From: Bacteriovorax sp. BAL6_X
GTDB taxonomy: Bacteria; Bdellovibrionota; Bacteriovoracia; Bacteriovoracales; Bacteriovoracaceae
DNA: 64,000 nucleotides
Assembly: GCF_000443995.1 (NCBI RefSeq)
Contig: NZ_AUMC01000009.1
Coordinates: 248,001 to 312,000, forward strand
Reading direction: 5' to 3'
Part shown: one piece after another, positions 14,999 to 53,854 of the stretch
How the letters are laid out: each line of letters starts with the position of its first letter
Position numbering within the stretch: the first letter of the stretch is position 1
Made by a program: the position numbers and the translations under genes
The notes under the pieces: model-generated
What the model saw: the letters and a program-made list of their open reading frames with translations, nothing else
Told to the model about the DNA's origin: nothing
The model's database searches: none

Positions 14999-17300
<2,302 letters not shown>

Positions 17301-17417
17301 GCAAAATTGACTGGCTAAGGCCAGTCTATTGTTTGCTTTGCTGGCTCCCCGTGAAGGGGGCACTCTTTATCCGAGAGCGAGGGGTTAGGCCCGAGCGGTT
17401 CGCTTAAGGAGCAAAAA
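17301..17417 (+). repeat. Structured stop-codon-linked intergenic element, copy A
   Basis: It begins with the base after the atpD stop. The first part folds as a long hairpin: GACTGGC-TAAG-GCCAGTC inside an outer AAGCAAA/TTTGCTT stem. A second domain is closed by GCTCC (17344-17348) and GGAGC (17408-17412) and contains CCCC/GGGG, CTCT/AGAG and GCG/CGC helices, ending GGAGCAAAAA. The same plan recurs after ychF and etfA. There is no clear T-run, so it is not a plain terminator. It sits between atpD and atpC and may set epsilon levels or mRNA ends. Confidence 0.75.
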
Positions 17418-17441: not shown

Positions 17442-17855
17442 ATGATGAGTAACTTTGTTGTAAATATTCTAACGCCTAGCTCAGTTGTTGCGAAGAACGT
17501 ACCAGCAGACTCAGTTTTCATTCCAACTTTAAAGGGTGAGATTGAAGTTCTTGATGGTCACACTCATATTGTTGAGAAGCTAGCTACTGGTAGCGTTGCT
17601 GTACATGGTGATGATTCTGAAAGATTCTTCACTGTTACTGACGGTATCGTAAAGGTTTTAAATGACCAAATTACTATCCTATCTCTGACTTCAGAAGAAA
17701 ATTGTCAGATTGATGAGGAAAGAGCTACAAATGCACTAATTTACGCTCGTGAAAAGCTGAAAGGAACACTGACTGATGAAGAATTAGTTAAGTATCGTCG
17801 CAAGCTTGAAAGAGCGGAACTTAGATTACAACTAGTTAAGCAAATTTCTAAATAA
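17442..17855 (+). CDS. atpC: ATP synthase subunit epsilon
   Basis: Epsilon is a small F1 rotor subunit that also inhibits hydrolysis. The 137-residue protein shows the N-terminal beta-sandwich with VNILTPSSVV and DSVFIPTLKGEIEVLDGHTHIVEKL (family: P...G.i.vL..H.p.v..L) and a C-terminal helical hairpin. Start ATG-ATG at 17442/17445 follows ATAAGGA. It is the last gene of the cluster and is followed by a strong terminator. Confidence 0.94.
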   Translation: MMSNFVVNILTPSSVVAKNVPADSVFIPTLKGEIEVLDGHTHIVEKLATGSVAVHGDDSERFFTVTDGIVKVLNDQITILSLTSEENCQIDEERATNALIYAREKLKGTLTDEELVKYRRKLERAELRLQLVKQISK

Positions 17856-44945: not shown

Positions 44946-46055
44946 ATGGCCCTAAATTGTGGGATTGTAGGACTTCCAAATGTTGGTAAATCAACGATTT
45001 TTCAAGCTCTAACTTCGGCACCAGCTGAAGCTGCTAACTTTCCATTTTGTACAATTGAACCAAATATTGGAATTGTAAATGTTGGTGATATCCGCATGCA
45101 AAAAATTGCAGAAATCATTGGGCCACAAAAAGTAATTCCAACAATCGTAGAGTTCGTTGATATTGCAGGTCTTGTTAAGGGTGCATCAAAAGGTGAGGGA
45201 CTTGGTAACCAATTCCTTGGAAATATTCGTCAAGTAAATGCAATCGTTCACGTTGTTCGCTGTTTTGATGATCCAAATGTTGTTCATGTTCACGGTGAAG
45301 TTAACCCTGTTGATGATATTGAAACTATTAATATGGAGCTTGCTCTGGCGGACCTTGAAGTTGCGCAAAGAAAGCAAACAAACCTTCCAAAACTGATGAA
45401 GAATCAAAATAAAGAAATTTCTTCAAAGGCCAAGATGTTAGTTCCTGTACTTGAGAAACTAATTGCTCATTTAGAGCAAGGTTTAGCTGCACGTATTCTT
45501 GATCTAGATAAAGAAGATATTGAACTTATTCGCGACCTGAATCTAATTACTCTTAAACCTACACTTTATCTATGTAATGTAGATGAGGATAGTGTTGGTG
45601 AGGACAATGACTATGTGAAGGCCGTGAAAGAGTTTGCTGAGAAGGAAGGTTCTCGTGCAATTAAGATTTGTGGAAAACTAGAGTCTGAGATTGCAGCTCT
45701 AGAAGATGAAGCAGATAAGAAAGATTTTATGGAAGCTGCTGGGATTGAGATTTCTGGTTTAGAGACTCTAACACACGAAGCTTACAATATGTTAGGTCTT
45801 CGTACATATTTTACTGCTGGTGTTAAGGAAGTTCGTGCTTGGACTTTTAAGGATGGTGCTAAGGCTCCTGAAGCTGCTGGTGTTATTCACACTGATTTTG
45901 AAAGAGGATTTATTAAAGCTGAGATCTATCACTATGATGATCTGATTGCTAATGGTTCTGAAGCAAAAGTTAAGGAAGCTGGTAAACTTCGTATAGAAGG
46001 TAAAGAGTACGTCGTAAAAGATGGTGATATTATCCACTTTAGATTTAATGTTTAA
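44946..46055 (+). CDS. ychF: Ribosome-binding ATPase YchF (Obg-like)
   Basis: YchF is an OLA1-type P-loop NTPase that prefers ATP and binds ribosomes. G1 is GLPNVGKSTIFQALT, G3 is DIAGLVKGASKGEGLGN, and the ATP-specific G4 reads CNVDED in place of NKxD. The C-terminal TGS-like domain ends GDIIHFRFNV. Length 369 is usual. Its TAA stop (46053-46055) is directly followed by a structured repeat element. Confidence 0.97.
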   Translation: MALNCGIVGLPNVGKSTIFQALTSAPAEAANFPFCTIEPNIGIVNVGDIRMQKIAEIIGPQKVIPTIVEFVDIAGLVKGASKGEGLGNQFLGNIRQVNAIVHVVRCFDDPNVVHVHGEVNPVDDIETINMELALADLEVAQRKQTNLPKLMKNQNKEISSKAKMLVPVLEKLIAHLEQGLAARILDLDKEDIELIRDLNLITLKPTLYLCNVDEDSVGEDNDYVKAVKEFAEKEGSRAIKICGKLESEIAALEDEADKKDFMEAAGIEISGLETLTHEAYNMLGLRTYFTAGVKEVRAWTFKDGAKAPEAAGVIHTDFERGFIKAEIYHYDDLIANGSEAKVKEAGKLRIEGKEYVVKDGDIIHFRFNV

Positions 46056-46183
46056 GCACCCGCGAAATTGACTGGCTTAGGCCAGTCAATTGTTCGCGGT
46101 GCTAGCTCCCCAATACTTTAGCTAGAGAAATATATTCAACAAGCCGGGTTCAAGCCCGGCTTTGTTGTCTCTGGAGCAAAAAA
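46056..46183 (+). repeat. Structured stop-codon-linked intergenic element, copy B
   Basis: It starts at the base after the ychF stop with GCA. Hairpin 1: GACTGGC-TTAG-GCCAGTC within GCGAA/TTCGC and GCACC/GGTGC stems. Domain 2 is closed by GCTCC (46105-46109) and GGAGC (46173-46177) and includes a 12-bp hairpin with six GC pairs (GCCGGG/CCCGGC) at about 46139-46168. The end is GGAGCAAAAAA. About 40 bases here are identical to the reverse complement of each 117-bp unit at 52.4-52.8 kb. Confidence 0.78.
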
Positions 46184-51045: not shown

Positions 51046-52224
51046 ATGAAAGCAACAGCTATTTACAAGAAATTCATTATCGCATCAGTACTATCAGGGT
51101 CATTCCTTGTATTCGGTGGAATTTACCAAGGAATTTCAGTAACTGATAACTCATTTATGCAACAGAAAGATATTTCTTTTGAAAAGAGAGTAGATGAGAG
51201 TGTTGATCGTATCGTTGCTTCATCTGATCGTGATAAAGTTTCAGTTCAATACCTACCGGTAGCTGAATATTCTCAAATTATTGATGGCCAGTGGGAAATC
51301 GTTAGAGTTGAAAATCACGAAGGAAATGAAATCTTTAATGAAAAAAATGTTAACTCTAAAAGATTAGTAGATATGAAGCTAATTGGTACAGGTCTTGTTC
51401 AGCTTAATGATAGTGAAGAGTATACTTTTGATGTTTCTTTCCTTCATGAAAATAATAAAAATATCTCTATCTTTAGAGCTTACGAAGATGGTTTTGAATT
51501 AATTGAAGCTAGAAAAGTTATTGAAGAGAAAATAGAAGAGACTTTAGAAGTTAATATTGATAAAGAGCTTGAAGAAGTTGCAGTTATTGATGAAAACGAA
51601 AGAAGAGAATTAGTTATTGAAAGAGTTGTTCTTCCACAACTTAATAACAAGCTAATTCGTGGTGAAGATAAAATTGAAGGAAGTGTGACAGTTGGTCCAA
51701 ATGGTATTCAAGGTCTATACTTCAATGTTTTTGATAAAGATATCAATGAAGTTCTTGGTGACATCAAGCTTAAAGATGGAAGCTCTTTTGAAGTTGAACT
51801 TCAGGGACAACTATCACACGGTGTATTTGCTAGAAATGGTGAAAATGGTTACCGTCTAAGATTTACTACTGGTCCATATGCTGGTGGTCTTATTAATTAT
51901 GTAACTTATGATGAACTAGAAAGAGTAAATGCTGAATTTGAAAATATGGAAAGAGCAAAAGAAGAATCACGTTTTGAAAGATCTCTAACAGAAGAAGGAT
52001 CTTTTGAAAATGATATCAACTTAGCTCAAAGTAATGCAAATCCAGTATCTTTTGAGAAACAAAACGAAGAGCAAGCTGAAGAAGAGAGATACGAGGAAAG
52101 ATACGAAGACGAGCAGTACGAGGAAGAAGCTTTAATTGATGACCCAGCTGCTAGATTTGAAGAGCAACAAGAGCTTGAGTACGAAAGACAAGAAGAATTA
52201 GACAGACAAGGTTATGGATTTTAA
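51046..52224 (+). CDS. Exported acidic protein under sigma-54 control, unknown function
   Basis: A 392-residue protein with an N-terminal membrane/signal segment (FIIASVLSGSFLVFGGIYQGISV, about 10-32). The middle is beta-rich, with two similar parts (IDGQWEIVRVENHEG... and IQGLYFNVFDKDIN...GVFARNGENGYRLRFTTGPYAG). The last 70 residues are extremely Glu/Arg/Tyr-rich (EEQAEEERYEERYEDEQYEEE), a charged tail or coiled coil. I do not recognise a family. It stands alone between two terminators. Confidence 0.8.
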   Translation: MKATAIYKKFIIASVLSGSFLVFGGIYQGISVTDNSFMQQKDISFEKRVDESVDRIVASSDRDKVSVQYLPVAEYSQIIDGQWEIVRVENHEGNEIFNEKNVNSKRLVDMKLIGTGLVQLNDSEEYTFDVSFLHENNKNISIFRAYEDGFELIEARKVIEEKIEETLEVNIDKELEEVAVIDENERRELVIERVVLPQLNNKLIRGEDKIEGSVTVGPNGIQGLYFNVFDKDINEVLGDIKLKDGSSFEVELQGQLSHGVFARNGENGYRLRFTTGPYAGGLINYVTYDELERVNAEFENMERAKEESRFERSLTEEGSFENDINLAQSNANPVSFEKQNEEQAEEERYEERYEDEQYEEEALIDDPAARFEEQQELEYERQEELDRQGYGF

Positions 52225-52257
52225 TCCTAAAATATAAAGAGAGAAGAGAAGATAAAA

Positions 52258-52284
52258 CAAAGGCCCTCAAAATTGAGGGCCTTT
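52258..52284 (+). terminator. Terminator after the sigma-54-driven gene
   Basis: AAGGCCCTC-AAAATT-GAGGGCCTT, then TTTAT. It lies 34 bp after the stop at 52224. Confidence 0.88.
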
Positions 52285-52303
52285 TATGTATTCGATTTAC
52301 GAA

Positions 52304-52900
52304 GTTTATTTGCTCCTGAGGCGAACCGCTGGGGCTTGTACCCGGCTTGTTGAATATGTAATTCATTTCATTGCACAGAGGCCTAGCACTGCAGGGAATA
52401 GATTGATTATTGCAATAACTTTCCCATTGGCCTAGAGACAACAAAGCCGGGCTTGAACCCGGCTTGTTGAATATGTAATTCATTTCATTGCACAGAGGCC
52501 TAGTACTGCAGGGAATAGATTGATTATTGCAATAACTTTCCCATTGGCCTAGAGACAACAAAGCCGGGCTTGAACCCGGCTTGTTGAATATGTAATTCAT
52601 TTCATTGCACAGAGGCCTAGTACTGCAGGGAATAGATTGATTATTGCAATAACTTTCCCATTGGCCTAGAGACAACAAAGCCGGGCTTGAACCCGGCTTG
52701 TTGAATATGTAATTCATTTCATTGCACAGAGGCCTAGCACCGCAGGGAATAGATTGATTATTGCACTAACTTTCCCATTGGCCTAGAGACAACAAAGCCG
52801 GGCTTGAACCCGGCTTGTTGAATATGTAATTCATTTCATTGCACAGAGGCCTAGCACCGCAGCCAATAGTTTGCCTTTGGGCAAACAATACTGCAGATGC
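52304..52900 (-). repeat. Structured stop-codon-linked element, copy C, expanded as a 117-bp tandem array
   Basis: Read on the minus strand, it starts at the base after the etfA stop with GCA and a hairpin GTTTGCC-CAAA-GGCAAAC. Four full 117-bp units follow (plus-strand 52742-52858, 52625-52741, 52508-52624, 52391-52507), differing at only a few positions. Each unit has a stem GGCCT/AGGCC, the GCCGGG/CCCGGC hairpin shared with copy B, and a GGGAA/TTCCC hairpin. The last partial unit switches to the AGCGGTTCGC module of copy A and ends GGAGCAAATAAA. This region of 676 bp between 52225 and 52900 holds no other gene I can support. Confidence 0.85.
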
Positions 52901-53854
52901 TTACAATACCTTCTTAAGCTCTTCTTGTAGAAGAGGTACGATTTGGAAAAGGTCTCCAACAATACCGTAGTCAGCTTTAGTAAAGATTGGCGCATCTGGG
53001 TCAGTGTTGATTGCAACAATAACCTTAGATGTTCTCATCCCTGCTAAGTGCTGAATAGCACCTGAGATACCACAAGCGATGTAAAGTGATGGAGCAACAG
53101 TTTTACCTGTTTGACCAACTTGCATTGCGTGTGGAGCATATCCTGAATCAACTGCAGCACGTGAAGCACCAACAGTTGCACCAAGTACTTCTGCTAGGTC
53201 TTCAAGGATTTTGAAGTTTTCAGCAGACTTCATCGCACGACCACCAGAAACGATGATATTCGCTTCAGTTAGGTCAAGCTTCTCAGAAGCTCCTTTAACG
53301 ATTTCTTTGATAACAGCTTTGATATCACCTGCGTTCGCAGCAACTTCATTAGTTGCTCCAGCACCAGCTGTAGGTGCTTCTGGCATACCAAGAGCGTTTG
53401 GTCTTACTGTAATGAAACCTGGCTTAGGTCCATCAAGTTCAACTTTAGCTAGAACCTTACCTGCAAATAGTGGTCTTGTTCCCGCAAAGTTGTCACCATC
53501 CATTACATAATTTGTAACTTCTGAGGCCATACCTGCATCGAACATACCAGCTAGTCTAGGCATGAGGTCTTTTGCAAGAGAAGTCGCACCAGCAAATACG
53601 TAATCGTAATTTGAACCGATGAACTCTTTAAGTGCGTTAGCGTAACCTTCTGGTGAGTACTGATCTAAGTTTGCACCTTTTAGGTTATGTACGTTAGCAG
53701 CACCATATTTTGCTAGGTCAGCAGCAGCGTTTGCACCCATGTCGCCAACAACTGCAACGTCAACAGTGTGACCAGCAAGCTTTCCTAGGATTTCAAATGT
53801 AACAGATTTAACTGTTTCACCACTTGTTTCTGAAAATACTAATACTTTTGCCAT
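52901..53854 (-). CDS. etfA: Electron transfer flavoprotein subunit alpha
   Basis: EtfA binds FAD and passes electrons from acyl-CoA dehydrogenases to the quinone pool. The C-terminal FAD domain carries VSGGRAMKSAENFK, GASRAAVDSGYAPHAMQVGQTGKTVAPSLYIACGISGAIQH and NTDPDAPIFTKADYGIVGD, all diagnostic. Length 317. It lies 14 bp after etfB. Its TAA stop (52903-52901) abuts the 117-bp repeat array. Confidence 0.97.
   Translation of the reverse strand: MAKVLVFSETSGETVKSVTFEILGKLAGHTVDVAVVGDMGANAAADLAKYGAANVHNLKGANLDQYSPEGYANALKEFIGSNYDYVFAGATSLAKDLMPRLAGMFDAGMASEVTNYVMDGDNFAGTRPLFAGKVLAKVELDGPKPGFITVRPNALGMPEAPTAGAGATNEVAANAGDIKAVIKEIVKGASEKLDLTEANIIVSGGRAMKSAENFKILEDLAEVLGATVGASRAAVDSGYAPHAMQVGQTGKTVAPSLYIACGISGAIQHLAGMRTSKVIVAINTDPDAPIFTKADYGIVGDLFQIVPLLQEELKKVL

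Follow-up and report, generated by a model that had tools for sequence, protein, structure and literature searches.

Four almost identical 117-bp units stand in tandem just past the stop codon of etfA in Bacteriovorax sp. BAL6_X, and the locus raises the question of what such an array is and whether it could act in the message that carries it. TRF (98% matches, score 1021) reports no other tandem array in the window, the whole 64,000-nt stretch of DNA analysed here. The locus is made up as follows.

51046-52224, plus strand: convergent gene facing etfA (ORF list).
52259-52284, no strand assigned: bidirectional intrinsic terminator between etfA (minus) and the convergent gene (plus), from a terminator search.
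52310-52343, minus strand: single 3′ end, the C module, of type B (GGGTACAAGCCCCAGCGGTTCGCCTCAGGAGC), from sequence comparison with other copies.
52332-52873, minus strand: tandem array of 117 bp × 4.6 copies in the 3′ UTR of etfA (TRF).
52391-52507, minus strand: unit 1 (numbered in plus-strand order), the same as unit 2 (comparison of units, as for the next three).
52508-52624, minus strand: unit 2.
52625-52741, minus strand: unit 3, with 2 differences from units 1 and 2.
52742-52858, minus strand: unit 4, the closest to etfA, with 3 differences from units 1 and 2.
52848-52903, minus strand: etfA stop codon and single 5′ hairpin P1 (A module), from an R1 match at 52847-52896, an R3 match and the fold.
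52901-53854, minus strand: etfA, host gene of the array (ORF and protein match).

Along the etfA strand, the stop codon is followed by a single P1, the four cores and a partial one, and then by a different 3′ end and the terminator. The four units had been placed at these coordinates in the preliminary description, and their registers are exact; no base separates units 1 and 2, and the other two show differences at 1-3 positions, a near-identity consistent with the recent or homogenised expansion suggested there. The three hairpins claimed for each unit appear in the fold of one unit, which at −36.2 kcal/mol (shuffled mean −24.0, z = −3.9) beats 200 of 200 shuffles; across the 691-nt array region both strands fold better than their shuffles. 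The partial fifth unit (52332-52390) does have a different 3′ module (AGCGGTTCGC at 52321-52330, minus strand), and this matches the atpD copy, which reads AGCGGTTCGC...AGGAGCAAA. The idea of a core amplified within a complete element also holds: P1 occurs once at the etfA stop, the P2/P3 core is repeated and the different 3′ end occurs once. The stop codon itself (52901-52903) overlaps the foot of the P1 stem. At the far end, the last core joins the type B 3′ end near a common GGGTWCAAGCCC stretch and its P2 is mismatched, GGCC against GGAGC. Since the GGAGC of the type B end finds no GCTCC partner anywhere in the array, the etfA element is regarded as a chimera.

What is repeated in the array is the middle part of one member of a dispersed repeat family, which has about 17 loci in this genome (3.23 Mb, 10 contigs; copies located by search only) and seven in four relatives. 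BLAST with one unit returned dispersed partial copies, ten of which were fetched and compared, and three covariance models built from the family were searched through the genome, where they find 16 P1-bearing loci and one groEL remnant. Congeners contribute six loci in three genomes (groEL and nqrF in G003, ahcY in G001, and ahpC, fusA and groES in G005). Beyond the genus a single copy, at ahcY of G121, was found with R3 in 291 genomes of the phylum, and the R1 scan of 115 genomes of the family gave no copy outside the genus. A second R3 match among the phylum genomes lies inside a coding frame and was taken as chance; another candidate, at G000:C3:410635 in the array's own genome (E 0.002), resembles coding sequence and was set aside, no element being visible. 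Two members besides the array lie in the window.

17298-17415, plus strand: single copy with P1, P2 and the type B 3′ module, between atpD (stop 17298-17300) and the gene at 17442.
46053-46180, plus strand: single copy with P1, P2 and type A P3, starting at the ychF stop codon.

From its position we take the gene at 17442 to be atpC. The copy at ychF is a further family member that was absent from the preliminary description. Searches of phages, plasmids and viral contigs gave no matches to the element. The Rfam scan of the window returned tRNA only, and seven element loci gave nothing at gathering score, the sub-threshold matches at relaxed thresholds being taken as chance. Among the genome literature on Bacteriovorax/Halobacteriovorax, PMC5760749, the paper looked into, does not describe the repeat.

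The copies compared share a common plan, in which P1 comes first and is followed by P2, whose 5′ and 3′ strands enclose a variable domain. P1, a long hairpin, carries a conserved internal loop of the ATTG/TATTG type. The 5′ strand of P2 sits in YTAGCTCC or YTAGGCC after P1, its 3′ strand is GGAGC or GGCC, often with AATGGGAAAGTT next, and the helix closes the variable domain through GCTCC/GGAGC, GGCC/GGCC, GCCCC/GGGGC and other pairs. That domain, which contains P3 or another module, is a CAACAAGCC...GGCTTTGTTG hairpin in type A and a GAGCGAGGG...CCCGAGCGGTTCG module in type B, and in the relatives it holds other modules too. A complete element is a multi-helix structure of ~115-190 nt.

These helices covary. 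With rows that are related, so that shuffle tests overstate significance, P1 scores 0.491 against 0.201 when shuffled (0/500 shuffles) and at most 0.185 when its partners are slid, with 87% of alignment cells pairing; P2 and P3 of the type A copies together score 0.411 against 0.144, with 98.6% pairing. P2 across all variants, including GCCC/GGGC, GCCCC/GGGGC, GCGCC/GGCGC and ACCTC/GAGGT, reaches 0.642 against 0.233 shuffled, with 96.7% of cells pairing and 5/5 pairs changed on both sides; its rows were hand-picked and spacer-joined, and the figure tests whether strands already selected can pair, not whether they can be discovered. Judged by fold energies, P1 favours the transcript strand over its complement in 20 of 21 copies (p = 1e-4 by Wilcoxon test on related rows); the alignment for G-U versus A-C counts had misaligned rows. 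For whole elements the strand difference in stability is weak (p = 0.045).

Several elements contain further structure. A second hairpin module, with a conserved GAAGGCAGGAGCCGA loop and variable stems, is nested in some of them in both orientations (L117, L116, L137, L120), and in relatives it forms degenerate repeats beside tRNA 3′ ends (G003:C9:10392; G004:C475:33-192). At the guaA locus (L113, G000:C10:912880-913200) a further 3′ half, unlike the first and carrying a GGAGCAATGGGAAAG of its own, lies within the outer P2 (GCGCC/GGCGC), which looks as though an element had been placed inside another. Downstream of the element at G000:C10:273586 (L103, 220-401) lies a short tandem repeat of about AGCGACACTTTAGCGAAGCTAAAGTTAGCAAAAACTATCTCATATAACCAAG in ~three copies. 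In the nqrF array (G003:C14:262923-263283) YUAGCUCC can pair with the stop-codon side of P1 or within an extended P2 (GTTAGCTCC/GGAGCTAAAC), which gives two mutually exclusive folds.

The position of the element is fixed with respect to its host gene. At 23 of 23 P1-bearing loci the start of P1 lies 0-8 nt from the stop of a co-oriented gene; a script sought a reading frame ending at each P1 for 22 loci, and the G121 copy is the 23rd. Seven of the 22 distinct host stops are UAG and 15 are UAA, with no UGA; the window genes use 40 TAA, 11 TAG and 3 TGA. All three bases of every UAG stop (7/7) are paired with CUA on the far side of P1 at a probability of 0.8 or more. Most UAA stops lie partly in P1. 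Those of metG and groES are paired with UUA, in the GC-type copies just the final base of UAA is paired, and at G003 groEL the stop is mostly unpaired. Since stop-codon pairing by itself is not rare (15 of 54 window genes have a paired base there), the anchoring argument rests on the consistent register of P1 and on covariation.

The hosts are mostly core housekeeping genes, among them atpD, rpsA, fusA, groEL, ahcY, guaA and metG. NCBIfam places atpD, ychF, rpsA and guaA above cut-off; matches for relA/spoT, an oligopeptidase A-like, a NuoI-like, a NifU-domain and an S1-domain protein, and etfA, are below the family cut-offs. The S1-domain protein is presumably Tex, and ahcY, metG, lpd, groEL, groES, fusA, ahpC and nqrF carry the names that we assign from reading their sequences. 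Mean codon bias of the hosts is 0.567, as against 0.463 for other window genes (p = 2e-4), with groEL and rpsA as the reference, themselves hosts and left out of the test, and window genes only as background.

Comparison of orthologues reveals gain and loss. EtfA shares 89% identity with the Bacteriovorax sp. DB6_IX protein, the next matches being from other Halobacteriovorax/Bacteriovorax genomes, and downstream of etfA in DB6_IX, MedPE-SWde, ARS37 and others there is a terminator only and no element. Downstream of ahcY the element is found in its own genome and in G001, and is absent in G003, G004, G005 and G015, which have only the terminator. It is also found at this gene in G121, which belongs to another genus, so the ahcY element occurs in three species of two genera; ahcY may be a site occupied long ago and since lost in some lineages, or one that the element prefers. 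Most examined orthologues of the host genes are without the element, and any function must therefore be dispensable. A target-site duplication and the 3′ boundary of the element were looked for, and none could be fixed.

Tandem growth has taken other forms elsewhere. Three 119-bp units at C10:754897, 90-95% identical, are each a whole P1-P2 element, and three 153-bp units at G003 nqrF (two identical, one 89%) include the terminator in the unit. Because the boundaries of the duplicated unit differ at each locus, slippage or unequal recombination is indicated rather than a fixed cassette. These two other tandem loci, and the orthologues that have none, make plausible the earlier suggestion that core copy number may vary between strains, on a comparison base of one genome per species.

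We lean towards the view that the array is part of a BOX-like modular interspersed repeat, A-B(n)-C, that forms RNA structure flush with stop codons in 3′ UTRs. The stop-codon placement suggests that the element works in the mRNA as a structured tail. It would be transcribed as a structured 3′ UTR, and the last ribosome would have to open the stem flush with the stop codon. As ribosomes leave, P1 would refold at the stop codon, where it could shield the end of the message from 3′-5′ exonucleases and/or slow ribosomes at termination, as E. coli REP may do. The near-identical cores would allow copy number to grow by slippage or unequal recombination. Structure by itself could also reflect a hairpin needed for mobility. 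A bolder proposal, offered tentatively and in our judgement unlikely to be correct, is that this is a new class of 3′ UTR RNA element in which a stop codon within a covarying helix couples termination to mRNA folding, so that the element would tune the core genes of these predators and tandem expansion would alter its dose.

Mobility is the starting point of the alternative that survives best, a purely selfish non-autonomous element (MITE- or REPIN-like), with hairpins that function in transposition and copies that persist only where they are harmless, just past stops. Dispersal, presence or absence at orthologous sites, patchy counts (17 loci against 1-3 in relatives), modules swapped between copies and the four Y1/RAYT transposase genes of the genome all speak for it. 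Harmlessness would, however, allow many other intergenic sites, yet every P1 copy is found at a stop and always in the same orientation; the stability of P1 favours the transcript strand, and a target duplication is not seen. The flanks of the four RAYT genes, moreover, lack the element and hold other palindromes, and on these non-matching flanks the RAYT transposases are rejected as mobilisers; no IS with ends matching the element was identified among the Y1/RAYT transposases of the genome. We consider a wholly selfish origin of this pattern doubtful, while taking it seriously.

The RAYT-like Y1 genes lie at G000:C9:239665, C6:335668, C10:366500 and C3:756167. Palindrome-like words particular to each gene (GGTACGTCGATAC..., GGTGCCATGCTCC..., GGTACCCGCGCCCC...) flank at least three of them, and single words of this RAYT type are seen just downstream of some stop-codon elements (L104, L111, L127).

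The conserved internal loop of P1, in helices that covary strongly, could instead be the binding site of a trans-acting protein or small RNA that coordinates growth-phase genes of the predatory cycle. Hosts drawn from translation, energy and nucleotide metabolism would suit such an RNA regulon, as would the recurrence at ahcY. Only a fraction of such genes carry the element, however, their orthologues are usually without it, and the candidate factor corresponds to no identified binding protein; we hold a regulon to be improbable.

Weak or reinforced intrinsic termination is suggested by P3 of type A, in which a U-rich stretch (UUUGUUGU, counted from where the GC stem ends) comes after a GC hairpin. 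This P3 is present four times in the array, and four matches resembling terminators are seen there on the strand of etfA. The U-run is missing, however, from type B and other copies, and a canonical terminator already follows the element at etfA, at ahcY and at a lipoprotein gene. The G005 copy sits between groES and groEL, presumably one operon. This role is very unlikely. Least credible of all is a coding role, whether for a repeat protein or for small RNAs processed to 117 nt: although 117 = 3 × 39 and a 188-aa ORF (52151-52717, minus strand, the etfA strand) runs through the array, we reject that frame as coding, for it overlaps the 3′ end of a real gene in antisense and owes its existence to the tandem copies, and variation in the family tracks base pairing; the processed RNAs of the preliminary description find no support in an etfA 3′ UTR where the one promoter-like match is weak and not above chance.

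The usual view of small interspersed repeats is that they are parasites whose placement is loose. This family keeps to stop codons and to one orientation, forms pairs with UAG or UAA, and is seen again at ahcY across two genera. It offers a clean natural test of whether repeats are kept for their action on translation termination or mRNA decay, and it also provides a possible copy-number marker for predatory marine bacteria.

Among known systems, the MIRU-type repeats of mycobacteria are likewise tandem and intergenic, but in this family the repeated core belongs to a structured element of greater length. Integron attC sites are structured and placed right after stop codons, as is the element, whose hosts are in contrast scattered housekeeping genes. 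The integron integrase model gives 8 weak matches in this genome, none over cut-off, and 14/14 control genomes are likewise below it; with the integrase not over cut-off, identity with attC is rejected. Neither the RAYT flanks nor the integrase search linked a mobilising enzyme to the element.

In E. coli, REPs near stops reportedly make ribosomes stall ahead of the termination codon (Liang et al. 2015), and REPs can block exonucleases (Newbury et al. 1987), both as cited in PMC12306157. The likeness to REP/BIME lies in structured hairpins just past stop codons, within the 15 nt that serve as the criterion for REP action on termination at all 23 P1 copies. The element here is, by contrast, much longer and multi-helix, with the stop at or in the stem, unlike the RAYT-flank palindromes. 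The closest anatomical parallel is BOX of Streptococcus pneumoniae and S. suis, boxA-boxB(n)-boxC, with a variable tandem core that is structured if transcribed (PMC3049150). Our comparison concerns anatomy, not identity: the Bacteriovorax family begins at the stop codon on the sense strand and has about 17 loci, and the full A-B(n)-C arrangement of 5′ and 3′ modules around tandem cores is found only at etfA. In both systems small, modular, interspersed repeats place single 5′ and 3′ ends around a tandem core.
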